The position numbers and the translations under genes were made by a program. A stretch of DNA of 22,607 nt. It comes from a virus. The notes under the pieces were generated by a model. That model did not search any database, was not told the origin of the DNA, and saw only the letters and a list, made by a program, of their open reading frames with translations. The DNA lies in the IMG/VR virus record IMGVR_UViG_3300042445_000960, positions 1 through 22,607 of that record. The stretch is one strand, 5' to 3'. Below, piece by piece: positions 2,552 to 22,607 of this stretch (the first letter of the stretch is position 1; each line of letters begins with the position of its first letter).

Positions 2552-2945
2552 TAAATTATATCAACCAGTTGCAGAAGATTTAAATATTGAAGAAAGTTTA
2601 GTTGAGCATTTAATGGAGTTTTATTATAAAGCTTTAAAAAATCAACTTAGTAATTTATCACACCCTAGAATAAATGTAGAAGGATTAGGTCATTTTGTTA
2701 TAAGGCCAGGTATGGTTAAGAAGTCTATAACAAGATATTCTAAAGTATTAGAAAACCATGATACTTCTACATTTAGTGCTTACCATAATAAAAGAATAGT
2801 AGAGAATAAACTTGAACTATTAATAGAAATGGAAAGAAAGTTAATCTTACAAGAAGAAGACAAGCAGAAATTTAAAGAGAAAAAAGATGAGTATACTAAA
2901 AACAATCTGGGAGAACAGGAAGCAAATTCTGGAGGGGATAACTAA
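2532..2945 (+). CDS. HU/IHF-like DNA-binding protein
   Basis: A 137-residue protein. Residues about 5-65 follow the bacterial HU/IHF layout: N-terminal helices (INKLYQPVAEDLNIEESLV...), then a strand pair at 48-64 with GLGHFVIRPGMVKK, comparable to the GFGTF-type signature of HU. The domain is extended by a charged helical tail to the C-terminus that HU itself lacks. HU-type dimers bend and compact DNA, and related genes are known in crAss-like and other Bacteroidota phages. The start at 2532 overlaps the upstream gene by 20 bases. The end overlaps the next gene by 59 bases in another frame. It may serve genome compaction, replication or packaging. Confidence 0.72.
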   Translation: MIPKKINKLYQPVAEDLNIEESLVEHLMEFYYKALKNQLSNLSHPRINVEGLGHFVIRPGMVKKSITRYSKVLENHDTSTFSAYHNKRIVENKLELLIEMERKLILQEEDKQKFKEKKDEYTKNNLGEQEANSGGDN

Positions 2946-3177
2946 TTCAGTTATAAGAGATCAAACTGTTGAGGATATTGCTCAGTTAAGATATTCTATC
3001 TGTTATGAGTGCCCAAGCAAAGGAAGAAAGTGTGTAGTAAAAGGTACAGCTCCATGCTGTAATGAATGTGGTTGTTCTCTTGCTTTTAAAACTCGGTCTC
3101 TATCTTCTGAGTGTCCATTAGGTAAATGGGATGCTATTGCTACAGAAGAAGAAGAAGATAAACTAGAAGAGCTATGA
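2887..3177 (+). CDS. Cysteine-rich zinc-binding-type protein
   Basis: A 96-residue protein with cysteines at about 39, 42, 49, 57, 58, 61, 63 and 76, in the order C-x2-C, C, CC-x2-C-x-C, C. The core reads CCNECGCSL followed by KTR and CPLGKW, a pattern I recall from small phage proteins of unknown function. Two zinc sites are likely. The N-terminus (ILKTIWENRKQILEGITNSV) is a helix and the C-terminus is a Glu cluster. The start lies 59 bases inside the HU-like gene. I accept this start because the overlapped N-terminal helix looks like a real part of the protein. The stop overlaps the nuclease gene start (ATGA). Its function is unknown. Confidence 0.75.
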   Translation: MSILKTIWENRKQILEGITNSVIRDQTVEDIAQLRYSICYECPSKGRKCVVKGTAPCCNECGCSLAFKTRSLSSECPLGKWDAIATEEEEDKLEEL

Positions 3178-10873: not shown

Positions 10874-12493
10874 ATGGCAACTCCAGTTTTAAACAATGGT
10901 ATCTTTCTACGGGATACAGCCTATGCGGCAAGTTCACACGTAGATTCATACCACTTGGTTAACATGTTGAAGGATGCAGAACCAATGGACTTAGGTCCAG
11001 TAGACCTATGGGCTATGGCTCAGAAGGTGGAAATGCCTCTTTACCAAATGTCTAGCTTTGGTGGTAAGAATGTAATTATGGTAGATAATGCTCGTGGTGA
11101 GTATAAGTGGCAGACTCCAGTATCAGTGGATCTTCCTTATATCATTGAAGACATTGAACCAGACAACAGTTTTAAAGGTGTAGATGGTACTACATTCCGT
11201 ATCAAACTTAGCAGAAGAGAATTTGGACATGGTGATATCATCACATATGACAAATACAACGGAGCTGAGATGTACATTGTACCAACTGAAGACATCTTAC
11301 CTGTAGGTGATGGATTTATCTATACAGTACAACTTGTAGATAATGACAACAACCGTTTCTTAGATAACAGATACCTTTCTAACGGTACTAAAGTATTCCG
11401 TAAAGGTTCTGCTAGAGGAGAATATGGTGAGAGATTTTCTGACATCCAAACAAGAACTGGTTTCCGTGAATTCTACAACTTTGTAGGAGGTGCTGAAGCT
11501 CACGTACATTATTCTATTTCTAGCCGTGCAGATCTTATGATCAAAGGTGGTATGAATGCAGATGGTACAGTTCCTGTAACTGAGATCTGGAGAAACTTTG
11601 GAGCTACTAATGATCCTTCTATCACATCTTTAGAAGATATGGTAAAAGTTCTTGGTAAAGACAAAGTAAAGAAAGCTTTTGATAACGGAGACTTGTCAAG
11701 AACATTCTTGACTACTATGGAAGCTGCTCACCTTTCTAAAATTGCTACTGACATTGAGACTTACTTAATGTGGGGACAAGGAGGTAGAGTTAAGCAAGAT
11801 GGTCCAGATGATATCAGATTATCAGTAGGTCTTTGGAAACAGTTGGACAACTCATTTAAAAGAGTATACAACAAGAACAACTTTACATTAGATTTATTCC
11901 GTGGAGAAATCTACAACTTCTTCAATGGTAAGGTTGAGTTCCAAGGTCCAGATCCAAAAAGATCTCTAGTAGTTCAGACTGGTATGGGTGGTATGAGAAT
12001 GGTTAATGAAGCTATCAAAAGAGAAGCAGTATCTTCTGGTCTTTTGATCCAAGCTGCTGACATTGGTGCTATCACTGGTAAAGGTATGGATTTGAACTTT
12101 GGATTTGCATATACTTCATATGTAATTCCATTCTTGGCAAATGTTAAGTTTGTTCTTAACCCAGCATTTGACAATGTTCATACTAATGACATTGAGAATC
12201 CAATCATTGATGGTTTCCCATTATCTTCTTACTCATTCATTATCTTTGATATCACAGATAATACTAATGATAACATCTTCTTATTAAAGTTATCTTGGGA
12301 TAACCAACTTAAGTGGTGGTATCAGAATGGTACTATGGATTATATGGGTAGAACTCAAGGTTTCCAGTCTTCTGGACAATTCAATGGATACCGTGTAATG
12401 ATGTCTCAAACAATGCCAGCTATCTGGGTTAAGGATCCTACTAAGGTTCTTAAGATTGTTATGAGAAACCCAATTACAGGTGGATCATTCTAA
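10874..12493 (+). CDS. Major capsid protein (probable, HK97-fold type)
   Basis: A 539-residue protein with no signal peptide, membrane segment or Lys-rich tail. It is mixed alpha/beta with many Gly, Asn, Asp and aromatic residues. It follows TerL, portal and scaffold in the usual order, has an A-rich leader (AACAAATAAACAAACAAATAAAA), and is followed 13 bases later by a strong terminator, as expected for the most abundant virion protein. The N-terminus (MATPVLNNGIFLRDTAYAA) and the section around GMGGMRMVNEAIKRE are distinctive. A long C-terminal domain has repeated aromatic strands (LKWWYQNGTMDYMGRTQGF). It is expected to form the icosahedral shell. I identify it mainly by synteny and size, since the fold cannot be shown without comparison. 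Confidence 0.85.
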   Translation: MATPVLNNGIFLRDTAYAASSHVDSYHLVNMLKDAEPMDLGPVDLWAMAQKVEMPLYQMSSFGGKNVIMVDNARGEYKWQTPVSVDLPYIIEDIEPDNSFKGVDGTTFRIKLSRREFGHGDIITYDKYNGAEMYIVPTEDILPVGDGFIYTVQLVDNDNNRFLDNRYLSNGTKVFRKGSARGEYGERFSDIQTRTGFREFYNFVGGAEAHVHYSISSRADLMIKGGMNADGTVPVTEIWRNFGATNDPSITSLEDMVKVLGKDKVKKAFDNGDLSRTFLTTMEAAHLSKIATDIETYLMWGQGGRVKQDGPDDIRLSVGLWKQLDNSFKRVYNKNNFTLDLFRGEIYNFFNGKVEFQGPDPKRSLVVQTGMGGMRMVNEAIKREAVSSGLLIQAADIGAITGKGMDLNFGFAYTSYVIPFLANVKFVLNPAFDNVHTNDIENPIIDGFPLSSYSFIIFDITDNTNDNIFLLKLSWDNQLKWWYQNGTMDYMGRTQGFQSSGQFNGYRVMMSQTMPAIWVKDPTKVLKIVMRNPITGGSF

Positions 12494-17620: not shown

Positions 17621-18319
17621 ATGACTAACAGTGTAATTACAATAAAGATGAAACAAAGGCTGAACAAGCTTGACAGCAATGACTATGATAACATAGAGTG
17701 TTGGCAAGTAGTTGAGTCTTTTAATAAAGCTCAAGTAGAGTGGTCAAGAAGACAATTGCATGGTGTCAACATTGTCAAAGAAGGTGATGAGCAGTCTACT
17801 AGAAGAAAAGATGATTTACAAGTTTTATTAACTTCTCAGCCAATAAATACTTTTCCAAAAGATATCTACTACTTTGCAAATATTCCAGGAGATTATTTAC
17901 AGTGGAAAAGAGTAGATGTCTATGCTAAAAAAGGATGTTGTGAAAAAAGAAGAATGACAGTATACTTAGCAGAAGAAGGTAATTTAAATGTTTTACTTAG
18001 AGACAAAGCAAAGCAACCAAACTTTGAATGGGCGGAAACATTTGCTACTTTAATAAATGACACAGTTCATGTATATACTAATAATGAGTTTGAAGTACAA
18101 AATGCTTCTTTAACTTATTATAGACAACCAAGAAAAATTCAGATAGAAGGGTGCATTGATCCGTATACCGGTGTTGAATCTACTGCAGAAATAGAATCTG
18201 AGTTTAAAGATGATATAATAGAATTAATAATAGATGAAGCTGTGGCAATACTAGCAGGAGACATTGAATCAGGAAATCAATTCTCTAGAGGTACAGAAAC
18301 TGCAGAAAGAAATAACTAA
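17621..18319 (+). CDS. Structural protein, probable head-tail connector or adaptor
   Basis: A 232-residue protein. The N-terminus is helical (MKQRLNKLDSNDYDNIECWQVVESFNKA-like), the middle is beta-rich (about 80-165), and the C-terminus is an acidic helix (EFKDDIIELIIDEAVAILAGDIESGNQF). A helix with DEAxxILAGDIE after a beta region resembles adaptor or ring proteins that follow the capsid genes in crAss-like and related phages. In such phages these proteins close the capsid vertex below the portal. The assignment rests on general resemblance and position. CC at about 107-108 and other cysteines have no obvious role. Confidence 0.7.
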   Translation: MTNSVITIKMKQRLNKLDSNDYDNIECWQVVESFNKAQVEWSRRQLHGVNIVKEGDEQSTRRKDDLQVLLTSQPINTFPKDIYYFANIPGDYLQWKRVDVYAKKGCCEKRRMTVYLAEEGNLNVLLRDKAKQPNFEWAETFATLINDTVHVYTNNEFEVQNASLTYYRQPRKIQIEGCIDPYTGVESTAEIESEFKDDIIELIIDEAVAILAGDIESGNQFSRGTETAERNN

Positions 18320-18906: not shown

Positions 18907-20589
18907 ATGGCTTATTTTAATCATGCTTTCAAAAAAAGCTTCCTGGCAACAGGACCGACACAAACAGCATTTCCTGTTACTCTTCCTAATGGAACTACAG
19001 TTAATGCTACAACAAATAGAGGTTACCTAGTATCAAATGGTGTACCTACTTATGGTTTAAATCAATTATCTGCAATTAATGTTGCTACTTATGGTGCAGC
19101 TACTACAGCTACTACCGATGGATACATTGGATGGTTTAACCCAAAAACAAATTTATCAGTTGATATCAATGATGAAGGATTTGCTCCTTGTTGTAATTTA
19201 TATCTTGCTGGTTCAGCAATTTATTCAAATGACAAGATTGGTCCTTTAGCAGGTGGTTACCAAGAGACTAACAAGTCTAAAATGGTTAACCCTAAATATG
19301 TATCTAGATTTTATCAAGTAAATCCATGTGCTCCACAAAATAATGTAATCCATGTAGGTTCTACTTATTGGACTGCAGGTGGTGGTGTATTAACAGTTGA
19401 TACACTAGTAGCTGGTACAGGTTATCCTAATGGTACTTATGCAGTTGAAGTAACTGGTGGTACTGGAACAGGTGCAATTTTAGAGATTGTAGTTACAGGT
19501 GGTACAGTTGATTCTGCTACTGTAATCAATCCAGGAAAAGGATATGTAGTAGGTGATACACTTACACTTGATGCTGGTAATGATGATGCTACTGTAGATG
19601 TAGCTACAGTAACAGATGCTCATGCACAAGAAGGATGTGGAATTACTCCAGATTGTTGTAAAGAATATTTATGTGGTGAGACTTACTCTTTACGTTTAGA
19701 TGTAAAAGGTTCTCCTGCATTAAGATTTTTAAATCACAATGCATACAACACTGTTGATGCTTACACAGGATGTTGTCCAGATGGTTCAATTGCACCTGTT
19801 GCTGTTGACTCTACAGAAGTAATGATCAAATGGGCAAATGGTTTAACTACTAATCCAATTGTTGGTCCTTTTGTACAAATTGTTGTACAAGCTGAAGACG
19901 GAACATTATTATATGCTCCAGGAACATCTGCTGCATTCTTAGCAGCTAATGGTGCTATTACTTGGGATCAATATCCTACAACTGCTCATGTTGATGGAGC
20001 TTGTGCTGGTTTAATTTTAAATGGTGCTTATGTTGATACTAAATTTGGTGACTGTACATTCCAATTAACTGACTTCTATGAAAAAGAGCCTGTTAGATTG
20101 TATGCATCAGAAGTTGACTTAAATGGTGATCCATGTGCATTTACTACTCTTTGTGTAGTAACTGAATGCCAAGGTCTTCAAGTTAATGGTTTAGGAGAAA
20201 CTGTATTAAGAGATTTAACATTGTCAGAATCTTACAGACAAAATTTCTTAGCAACTGATTTTAGAATTCGTGAGATTACTCAAGGAAACCAAATCGTCAG
20301 TTCTGTTGATAGAAATGCATTATACTACAGATATATGTTACAACACAATGTTCCAAGAAATTATAATCCTTCTGGTACATTTGATGCTGATCAGTATATG
20401 TTAGAGATTTTCTCTTTAGCTGCTCTTAATACTTTTGCAGATGATACTGCTGGTTGGTTAAAGGCTTGTGGAGTTTGTGAAATTAATGTAGGAGAAGATG
20501 CATATTCTTGTGATACAGTATGTGAGGTTCCAATTGCATTCCCTGCTATTCCAGTATATAATCCGTACAATGTAGTTTCTTGTAACTAA
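18907..20589 (+). CDS. Large cysteine-containing virion structural protein with an inserted beta domain
   Basis: A 560-residue, beta-rich protein with no signal peptide. Residues about 1-157 include GYLVSNGVPTYGLNQLSAIN and a CC pair. Residues about 159-238 are a Gly/Thr/Val-rich domain with GTGYPNGTY and GKGYVVGDTLTL, a form common in phage fibre and structural proteins. Then comes a cysteine-rich section (GCGITPDCCKEYLCGETY) and an extended domain to the end with more cysteines. Its own promoter box, A-rich leader and terminator imply abundant synthesis, as for a tail tube, sheath or other major structural protein. Which of these it is cannot be told from the sequence. Confidence 0.8.
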   Translation: MAYFNHAFKKSFLATGPTQTAFPVTLPNGTTVNATTNRGYLVSNGVPTYGLNQLSAINVATYGAATTATTDGYIGWFNPKTNLSVDINDEGFAPCCNLYLAGSAIYSNDKIGPLAGGYQETNKSKMVNPKYVSRFYQVNPCAPQNNVIHVGSTYWTAGGGVLTVDTLVAGTGYPNGTYAVEVTGGTGTGAILEIVVTGGTVDSATVINPGKGYVVGDTLTLDAGNDDATVDVATVTDAHAQEGCGITPDCCKEYLCGETYSLRLDVKGSPALRFLNHNAYNTVDAYTGCCPDGSIAPVAVDSTEVMIKWANGLTTNPIVGPFVQIVVQAEDGTLLYAPGTSAAFLAANGAITWDQYPTTAHVDGACAGLILNGAYVDTKFGDCTFQLTDFYEKEPVRLYASEVDLNGDPCAFTTLCVVTECQGLQVNGLGETVLRDLTLSESYRQNFLATDFRIREITQGNQIVSSVDRNALYYRYMLQHNVPRNYNPSGTFDADQYMLEIFSLAALNTFADDTAGWLKACGVCEINVGEDAYSCDTVCEVPIAFPAIPVYNPYNVVSCN

Positions 20590-20666: not shown

Positions 20667-21209
20667 ATGGCAAATCATGTATTAAGTTTAGAAGTACCTA
20701 CTGTAATGAATCCTTGTATTCTAAAGATATTTGATACAAGTGTATACAGTAATCTTATTTCTATAAGTTGCCCAACATTAAATATTACAGTACCTGGATT
20801 TGGTTACTCTAATCAAATTGATGTTACTGCCAACTTTGCTGAAACTATTACTGCATGTGATTTGCAATTACAGACTACAGATTGCGGTAATACGTACTAT
20901 AATTTACCAGATGGTATTTATATCATTAAGTATAGTGTAGAACCCAAAGAACAAGTATATGTAGAATATAATCACATGAGAATTACAGAAGCATTAAATA
21001 AGTATTACAATGTTCTTTGTGATATAGATGCTAATGCATGTGATCCACCATTCAAAGTTAAGCAACAGTTAGAAGAACTTAGAATGATATTCATGTATCT
21101 TCAAGCTGCAAAAGCAAAAGTAGAGACTTGTCATGAACCACAGAAAGGTATGAGTCTTTATAATTATGCATTGAAGCTACTTAATAAAATGTCTTGTACA
21201 AATTGTTAA
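20667..21209 (+). CDS. Unknown virion-region protein: beta N-terminus, helical C-terminus, cysteine-rich
   Basis: A 180-residue protein starting 12 bases after the terminator T-run in a TCATG context. Residues 1-105 are beta-rich (HVLSLEVPTVMNPCILKIFD, then DLQLQTTDCGNTYYNLPDGI, YIIKYSVEP). Residues about 115-178 are helical (KQQLEELRMIFMYLQAAKAKV, YALKLLNKMSC). Cysteines are frequent and the protein ends CTNC. I recall this kind of protein from large environmental Bacteroidota phages, next to the preceding structural gene, but know no function. A fold with an N-terminal beta domain and a helical bundle would fit a tail or appendage connector. Confidence 0.75.
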   Translation: MANHVLSLEVPTVMNPCILKIFDTSVYSNLISISCPTLNITVPGFGYSNQIDVTANFAETITACDLQLQTTDCGNTYYNLPDGIYIIKYSVEPKEQVYVEYNHMRITEALNKYYNVLCDIDANACDPPFKVKQQLEELRMIFMYLQAAKAKVETCHEPQKGMSLYNYALKLLNKMSCTNC

Positions 21210-21229: not shown

Positions 21230-21421
21230 ATGGCAAAATGTCCAAACTGCGGAACAAATCTTACTTGTGGATGTCAGAAAAGAGTTGTTAATGGAGTATC
21301 CGGTTGCAGTAAATGTTTAAACAATGCACCAGCTAAAACAACAACTAAAATACAACCTGCAAAAGATTTAAATTCTTTTAGTAAGAATAGAAATAATACT
21401 TTAAATAAGTTTACAAAATAA
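21230..21421 (+). CDS. Small zinc-ribbon-like protein
   Basis: A 63-residue protein with CPNCG at 4-8, CGC at 13-15, and C-x2-C at about 26-29 (GCSKC). This makes seven cysteines in the first 30 residues, enough for one or two zinc sites of zinc-ribbon type. The rest is a Lys/Asn/Thr-rich tail that is probably unstructured. The ACCAACAAA leader marks it as a virion-region gene, and its stop overlaps the next start (TAATG). No family name is assigned. It may help fold or anchor the cysteine-rich repeat protein that follows, a guess based on coupling only. Confidence 0.75.
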   Translation: MAKCPNCGTNLTCGCQKRVVNGVSGCSKCLNNAPAKTTTKIQPAKDLNSFSKNRNNTLNKFTK

Positions 21422-22607
21422 TGGCGGCTACAGTAATATACTCATTTGTTCCTTGTTGTGATCCAACTGCAGAACCATTACAGTTTAATCAACATGGTGT
21501 GTTTTTACCAACTGTACCTGGAGTTTATACATTTACAGGAGTTCCACAACTAGGTTTAGAAAATGGAGTATGTTATACTGTAACTACTACACCGGCAACT
21601 GTTCCTAATCCAACATTGCCCAATATACCATCTGCAACTAATTTTCAATTAATAACTGAAGGATGTGAAGCAGAAGAATGCTTATGTACTCCACAATGTT
21701 TTCAATTAACTTCATGTAATGGTGTAGTAATATTTTCTGAAGATGATCTTATTCTTTACAATAATCAGTTTGTAAGTTTAGTTCAGTATCCTGGAGAATG
21801 CTTCTTTGTAGAACTTTTACCACAAGGTAGTTGCGGATCTTCACCACAGAAAGTAGATGTGGATCCAGATATACCTTGTAGCTGTTCTTGTATATGTTAT
21901 ATCATAACTGGTTCAGGAGTAGTAAGTTACCTTGAGTGTGGTGGTGAAACTCTTACGGCATTTGCACCAGCACAGTTTTGTTCTATATCATATCCAGAAG
22001 TTCTATCTGGTACAGAAACAATAGAAATATTTGATAATGGTCCATGTGATGATGTCAATGGTTGTCCAGAAAAATGTTTTCTGCTTACCAATTGTGATCC
22101 AACTATAACAGAAACTGTTACATCTAATTCATTTACTTTACTTACACATGCTCTTAATAATGAGATAGTAGTACTAGTAGGTTATGAAGGATGTTGGGTA
22201 GTTGAAGAAACAGAAGACTGTGAGTGTGCGGTAGCTGTTACAGTTATACAAAGTTTTAGTAGTTGTGAGACATGTTCTCCGCCACCTGCTTATAAACTTA
22301 CAAATTGTCAAAACTCTGCACAAATACTTTATACATATGAAGACTTAGCTTTATATGTAGATAAAGTAGTTGAGTTAGATTGTGGAGGATGTTGGAAAGT
22401 AGAACTTTTAACCATACCACCACCAAGTGTACAGAATGTTACGGTACTTGCAAACTTTGGTACTTGTGAAGAATGTTTAGCTATTTACTGGGAGCTTACA
22501 GATTGCACTGGAGTTAAAGATCCTATTTATACTTCTCAAGATTTATCTCTATATGAAGGTCTAATAGTACAATTAGATTTTTGTCCAGATGTGTGTTGGT
22601 CAGTAGA
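21421..22607 (+). CDS. Cysteine-rich tandem-repeat protein (3' end cut by window edge)
   Basis: ATG at 21421 overlaps the preceding stop (TAATG). The frame stays open for 395 codons to the right edge, so the gene is partial. From about residue 93 it is built of repeats of about 63-70 residues: an LT[SN]C-like start (CFQLTSC 93-99, a degenerate CYIITGS 159-165, CFLLTNC 219-225, YKLTNC 290-295, YWELTDC 356-362), then I.Y...DL..Y....V.L, and CW.V near the end (GCWVV, GCWKV, VCWSV). Extra CxxC pairs lie between units. Extended beta repeats linked by cysteines suggest a surface fibre or adhesin of the virion. No signal peptide is seen. The cysteines could form disulfides after lysis or bind metal. 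Confidence 0.8.
   Translation, partial: MAATVIYSFVPCCDPTAEPLQFNQHGVFLPTVPGVYTFTGVPQLGLENGVCYTVTTTPATVPNPTLPNIPSATNFQLITEGCEAEECLCTPQCFQLTSCNGVVIFSEDDLILYNNQFVSLVQYPGECFFVELLPQGSCGSSPQKVDVDPDIPCSCSCICYIITGSGVVSYLECGGETLTAFAPAQFCSISYPEVLSGTETIEIFDNGPCDDVNGCPEKCFLLTNCDPTITETVTSNSFTLLTHALNNEIVVLVGYEGCWVVEETEDCECAVAVTVIQSFSSCETCSPPPAYKLTNCQNSAQILYTYEDLALYVDKVVELDCGGCWKVELLTIPPPSVQNVTVLANFGTCEECLAIYWELTDCTGVKDPIYTSQDLSLYEGLIVQLDFCPDVCWSV

Follow-up and report, generated by a model that had tools for sequence, protein, structure and literature searches.

The last gene of the stretch of viral DNA analysed here, 22,607 bases that make up the entire virus record IMGVR_UViG_3300042445_000960 (the window), encodes a cysteine-rich protein built as a string of small domains in fixed order. 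We propose, with moderate confidence, that it is a disulfide-locked modular bead rod of the tail region, which in a large clade of crAss-like phages would serve as a rigid adaptor, sited at the collar of the tail or at the base of the fibres. The bead gene occupies 21421..22605 on the plus strand; the initial annotation had begun the feature at 21697, inside the gene. There are 395 codons present and no stop before the contig end, so the gene is cut and its 3' end lies beyond the contig. In L056, the nearest relative with the whole gene, the protein has 593 residues and is 66% identical to the window protein over 393 residues. Cysteine makes up 33 of the 395 residues (8.4%), compared with a mean of 0.93% for the 21 tallied window genes before position 18,000 and none in the window capsid protein; across the last four window genes the content is raised, to 3.4-9.5%. 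A separate 96-aa ORF at 2887-3177, just upstream of the terminase region, has 8.3% cysteine and gave no match in a Pfam search.

The initial annotation had described tandem cysteine-rich repeats that begin with LTxC and end near a C-W-x-V strand. The repeats are genuine, their similarity going beyond composition. Among the units R1, R3, R4 and R5, five of six pairs scored above every one of 500 shuffles (z 5.3-11.6), and the sixth, R3-R5, in which R5 is cut by the contig end, gave z 0.3 and did not beat them. Four LTxC motifs, with cysteines at residues 99, 225, 296 and 362, and C[WFY]xV strands at 51, 127, 258, 324 and 392 lie within one residue of where they had been placed. Profiles built from relatives join the four positions A1-A4 pairwise with hhalign probabilities of 98.0-99.5, making them one family. 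On the plus strand, the unit HMM finds A1 at 21697..21891 (residues 93-157, i-E 1.3e-12), A2 at 22075..22275 (residues 219-285, i-E 6.4e-16), A3 at 22291..22476 (residues 291-352, i-E 5.7e-21) and A4, cut by the contig end, at 22486..22605 (residues 356-395, i-E 6.3e-14). The part of the description that failed concerns residue 162, where a degenerate repeat had been read. This segment, R2, is no A-type unit: its z was at most 1.3 against every other unit, and its profile probability at most 2.4. It is a different domain, B (21889..22074, plus strand, residues 157-218), which recurs as B' after A4 in complete relatives (probability 98.0, E 1.5e-13, 65 columns). No kinship between A and B was detected at the profile-comparison sensitivity used. 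The array is thus not uniform, domain B interrupting the A units. At the N-terminus, R0 (21421..21693, plus strand, residues 1-91), of the type CC ... CYTV ... C..C, is perhaps one more, divergent A unit, on marginal evidence: it scored z 5.7 against R4, and its profile matched three of the four A positions with E-values, each from a single hhalign comparison, of 2e-4 to 1e-3 and probabilities of 21-46. The best of these matches, U3, had E 2e-4 and a probability of just 46. The complete layout is R0, A1, B, A2, A3, A4, B' and a helical hairpin.

As a direct query the window bead protein found no match in viral contigs, and a tblastn search with it and two long relatives against 50,697 phage records found nothing, so relatives were reached through a neighbouring gene at 18907..20589 on the plus strand, whose 560-aa product served as the anchor. 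Residues 158-228 of the anchor are an insertion that resembles phage baseplate or structural domains (phrog_438, E 6.3e-7). An anchor search in IMG/VR gave 507 pattern matches, 487 of them confirmed. The best 80 were retrieved, and scanning again with distant members brought the set to 115 distinct anchor sequences, the window's own among them. A unit-bearing ORF follows the anchor in 104 of these 115 distinct loci, at a distance of 500-1000 bases for 102 of 105 ORFs. Nine of the 11 loci that lack one have less than 1,500 bases downstream, and L035, also among the 11, has a cut ORF that is less cysteine-dense. L239 is the only locus with more than 2 kb past the anchor yet no sign of a bead gene. 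In the best 80 loci, a downstream ORF with at least three C[WFY]x[VIL] motifs was present in 75, and the complete bead proteins range from 421 to 1085 residues, the extra length of the longer ones lying mostly N-terminal of the four A units.

Comparison of repeat number between related phages, which the initial annotation had recommended, showed it to be nearly constant: exactly four A units were counted in 59 of 76 proteins, or in 62 of 104 when truncated proteins are included. Each unit of 57 complete four-unit proteins was compared with the units of non-close proteins, and for 211 of 228 units the top match held the same position, which places the A-unit duplications before the divergence of the sampled clade. 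Judged by these alignments, the A-unit array is old and fixed in order, and is no freely expanding repeat. The conserved portion of the protein comprises A2-A4, B' and the hairpin, with the hairpin, A3 and A4 among the best conserved parts. The A units are confined to the bead gene in all 23 whole records searched, which were chosen from the fetched set; two weak extra matches (E 5e-5 in G006 and 9e-4 in G002) lie inside another cysteine-rich ORF. A second cysteine-rich protein, with NCC ... CW ... C..C repeats, was seen beside a small lipoprotein-like gene in two of 23 large records (L359 1256-3136, 626 aa; L360 511-2403, 630 aa), and its sequence is perhaps that of a distant cousin of R0 and the A units. 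When A4 was searched against species-genome contigs, none of 20 pattern matches was confirmed, and hosts or prophages thus gave no evidence of the unit at that sensitivity.

The phage is crAss-like (Crassvirales) by its capsid match: the major capsid protein gene at 10874..12493 on the plus strand matches Pfam Crass_capsid (PF23898) with E 1.3e-30 and 106.7 bits, the cut-off being 27. Further along the same strand are a ring-protein-like gene (17621..18319), which shares phrog_15924 with phi-crAss001 gp34, the anchor gene, and a gene at 20667..21209 for a 180-aa protein with 5.0% cysteine, whose family accompanies 114 of the 115 anchor sequences. Between the ring-like gene and the anchor, the gene at 18325-18843 matches a starvation-inducible regulator family (phrog_858, E 1.8e-16; Pfam DUF5856). 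A 63-aa ORF with six cysteines (21230..about 21421, plus strand) lies between the 180-aa gene and the bead gene; its best Pfam score, E 0.019, is below cut-off, and it carries a CPNCG-type motif. Its stop shares one base with the bead gene start, which suggests coupled translation. The window ends before the R2 and R1 ring genes, and the evidence for these comes from L056, where two genes of fibre-like appearance, neither with a family match, come after the bead gene, and then a 193-aa gene, the R2 and R1 matches and a large structural gene. The two ring matches, CrAss_Ring_2 (E 1.7e-21) and CrAss_Ring_1 (E 4.3e-8), are both above cut-off. Paralogous tail ring genes are described as a conserved, defining feature of crassviruses (PMC10172136), and several are found here when those of L056 are taken with the window gene sharing phrog_15924. 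With R2 and R1 downstream in the closest relative, the bead gene belongs to the tail module. The earlier description of a probable virion protein draws its support only from this gene order, with Crass_capsid upstream and Ring_2 and Ring_1 downstream in L056.

By capsid protein the best phage record is Leptolyngbya phage Lbo-JY46 (PP438436; 28% identity over 99%). It encodes a 177-aa protein homologous to the 180-aa neighbour (hhalign E 5e-10), and the 560-aa neighbour also has a homologue there over part of its length (E 1.2e-4); tblastn found no A-unit bead protein in it. This best capsid-matching phage (L082 entry) infects the cyanobacterium Leptolyngbya boryana, not a Bacteroidota. Its genome has many tRNA genes, two of them for tRNA-Cys.

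In phi-crAss001, hub-hub, hub-ring and ring-ring disulfides have been described in the tail (PMC10172136). The initial annotation had considered the cysteine density unusual for such a particle; the density stands, and it is less striking than claimed given a known crassvirus whose collar and rings are disulfide-cross-linked (PMC10172136). The phi-crAss001 gene order is rings gp34/35, gp36, tail hub protein A (THA) gp38, tail hub protein B (THB) gp39, R2 gp40, gp42, R1 gp43 and muzzle gp44 (roles from PMC10172136), with the families THA PF25724, THB PF25711, R1 PF24228 and R2 PF25702. The clade studied here shares with phi-crAss001 the crassvirus tail module in the same general gene order, detectable R1 and R2 homologues in L056, and cysteine-rich protein in that module, the phi-crAss001 hub protein A having 11 cysteines in 215 residues. 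The two differ in that the phi-crAss001 hub proteins have no bead domains, and in that the disulfides predicted here mostly stay in a single chain, inside a bead or from bead to bead, whereas those of phi-crAss001 join hub and ring proteins (PMC10172136).

By its gene order the bead gene is placed in the tail module where hub genes are expected, the 180-aa gene holding the hub A position. The bead protein might replace crassvirus hub protein B functionally, its hairpin sitting in the collar and the beads having been grown onto that hairpin. The order ring-like gene, anchor, 180-aa gene, bead gene, fibre-like genes, R2, R1 parallels phi-crAss001 gp34-gp43, the hairpin is as noted among the best conserved parts, and in Lbo-JY46 the gene for the 177-aa homologue is followed by one for a 92-aa protein. 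Profile comparisons went against this reading. A hairpin profile from 81 of the 94 complete proteins gave E 0.39 against THB by hhalign, and no homology of the bead protein to THA or THB was found; the hairpin matched the 92-aa protein of Lbo-JY46 with E 0.012, over 9-11 columns only; and among 51 bead proteins there was no match to Pfam crAss_THB (PF25711) at E 0.1. Homology of the 180-aa neighbour to THA was likewise not supported (hhalign E 0.075). Each hub profile was built from 11 sequences, a scan with phi-crAss001 THA having found only three loci. Since profiles join neither the bead C-terminus to hub B nor the 180-aa protein to hub A, we treat replacement of the hub as a rival idea rather than a finding, and hold it as a tentative possibility.

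The AlphaFold2 model of L056 (mean pLDDT 83.7, pTM 0.47) shows strands along the whole chain, plus a pair of helices at 509-532 and 542-558, and a single A unit, A3, modelled with 46 aligned units (mean pLDDT 96.0, pTM 0.79) has five strands. Pfam and PHROG profiles gave no credible match over cut-off to the window protein and 51 aligned relatives, the best PHROG score being E 0.0034, in one of the 51. Against solved structures, the best Foldseek E for the A unit was 2.1, and a second structure aligner gave at best Z 3.3 (47 residues, rmsd 3.4), to an m1A58 tRNA methyltransferase. A full-length fold search, which mainly probes B, B' and the hairpin, returned no PDB chain at Z of at least 5. 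Among viral models in BFVD, A0A516LFR9 (1279 aa, in pieces) and A0A516LRQ9 (287 aa) have an A-unit-like fold with Foldseek probabilities of 1.00 and 0.99, TM-scores over the unit of 0.66-0.78 and identities of 23-36%, at E-values of only 0.10-0.15. The earlier remark that the repeat matches no nameable domain held across Pfam and PHROG searches, and no solved structure matched the unit well. Literature on crAss-like phage tails and virion disulfides was searched, and no description of the protein or the unit was found. Crassvirus tail parts stabilised by disulfides are already known as a kind; what appears to be new is the domain family, together with the bead architecture.

The cysteines of the A units fall into two classes. 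In a non-redundant set of 190 units (37 proteins with four units), four positions, 7, 37, 61 and 64, which form the LTxC, CW and CxxC motifs, are cysteine in nearly every unit. The presence of cysteines elsewhere depends on the position of the unit in the protein. A cysteine before strand 1 and a mid-unit cysteine after the CWxV strand were both present in 150 and both absent in 159 of 325 A units, with one unit having only the first and 15 only the mid-unit cysteine (309/325 concordant). The 325 were reached from 394 by setting aside 51 units (29 lacking core cysteine 7 or 37, and 22 lacking 61) and identical copies. Seven of the 15 mid-only units have a substitute cysteine in strand 2, compared with none of the 159 having neither; a strand-2 cysteine accompanies the first cysteine in four of 151 units. 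On a tree from the full-length alignment, few changes at this pair were shared: one of 4 and 4 for columns 355/400, one of 5 and 5 for 289/335, three of 17 and 10 for 92/137 and three of 7 and 7 for 218/266. This is partly because these columns align poorly, and the weak tree count indicates that the 150/1/15/159 distribution includes much shared ancestry.

Stronger pairing was seen in B'. In 93 of 94 proteins the cysteines C425 and C446 (L056 numbering) are concordant. The tree implies 9 and 10 changes at these two positions, and nine of them coincide in both branch and direction. When changes were placed at random on the 186 branches, with uniform draws that ignore branch lengths, never more than five were shared in 100,000 draws; the pairs reported are a selection from the 190 that 20 columns allow. 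For the paralogous pair in domain B, both cysteines are present in 37 of 76 proteins, neither in 31, and a single one in 7 and 1. That count leaves out 18 of 94 proteins, which lack the B start cysteine, and it overstates the mismatch, six of the eight disagreeing rows holding DC or NC just past the counted stretch. Between beads, C268 in A2 is concordant with C320 in A3 in 90 of 94 proteins, with four of their 5 and 6 changes shared, and by this covariation at least one predicted disulfide links bead A2 to bead A3. Carried over by alignment from L056 to window residues, the predicted pairs are C93-C138, C157-C173, C219-C267 and C269-C321. C320 and C387, which hold the same position in A3 and A4, disagree in 25 of 94 proteins and share no changes, and the covariation data revealed no partner for C387, the extra cysteine of A4. 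Among first units, none of 12 without the CW cysteine (position 37) retains all three cysteines of the next cluster, compared with 28 of 43 among those with it; the comparison covers 55 of 99 first units, as 44 could not be parsed. Where the CW cysteine is gone, one or two cysteines of the following cluster are missing as well, rather than four together.

Gain and loss of cysteines in pairs favours disulfides over metal. This pattern in the alignments suggests the trace that disulfides would leave, and is no proof of them, as relatives share history. The initial annotation had left oxidation and metal binding side by side as explanations of the cysteines; paired gain and loss now weights the choice toward disulfides for the varying cysteines, while the four near-invariant core cysteines vary too little for pair testing. 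The A units could be zinc modules, the LTxC, CW and CxxC cysteines holding one zinc and only the extra cysteines forming disulfides. The near-universal presence of the four core positions fits this, as do the 33 of 325 units that have none of the first, mid and pre-CW cysteines beside the core four. The varying pairs all change two by two, and the losses that track loss of cysteine 37 in first units involve one or two cysteines and no group of four. Zinc modules seem unlikely to us.

We also doubt that the beads form a receptor- or glycan-binding fibre that itself contacts the host surface. The gene adjoins fibre-like genes, the design is that of beads on a string, and complete proteins vary in length, as described above, mostly on the N-terminal side of the A units; the conservation of A2-A4, B' and the hairpin, in fixed order, is unlike that of a host-range tip, and no lectin or carbohydrate-binding family gave a credible match. 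That the protein is not part of the virion, for example a secreted protein or a chaperone located in the tail module by chance, is improbable given how consistently a unit-bearing ORF follows the same neighbour across the distinct loci.

The disulfide-locked rod that we favour would consist of some seven small beta domains, two of them type B and five type A if R0 is included, and would end in the conserved helical hairpin. Each bead would be held by its own disulfides, with A2 tied to A3. The protein would be synthesised reduced in the cytoplasm and probably oxidised on or after release of the particle; the C-terminal hairpin would anchor the rod, and the rod would carry or brace the fibres encoded alongside it. 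The tail disulfides of phi-crAss001 indicate that crassvirus particles can be oxidised (PMC10172136). Thioredoxin or glutaredoxin genes were found in none of 12 large records searched, with controls working; a phage-borne aid to oxidation was thus not seen, and we infer that oxidation after release is the simpler guess. Matches to tRNAs were present in 7 of 12 records, and ARAGORN identified six tRNA-Arg and one tRNA-Cys among eight loci, which gives no general link to tRNA-Cys. A more elaborate version, in which the A unit is a new disulfide-locked beta fold in a rod whose beads are cross-linked to each other like chain-mail, assembled reduced, locked after release and replacing hub B in the collar, strikes us as speculative and rather unlikely. 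To that version belongs the suggestion that partner switching, from the first-strand to the strand-2 cysteine, may be visible in the evolution of the units.

In sum, hundreds of IMG/VR stretches encode the anchor gene, and the bead protein behind it is unnamed in the libraries searched. If the paired cysteines are disulfides, these phages would offer naturally occurring data from which bonded cysteines could be recognised solely by how they are gained and lost. A testable question would also arise, namely how a particle built in the reducing cytoplasm of a bacterium gains dozens of disulfides. If our reading is true, the kind of tail stabilisation by disulfides found in phi-crAss001 would reach a distant branch whose architecture differs.
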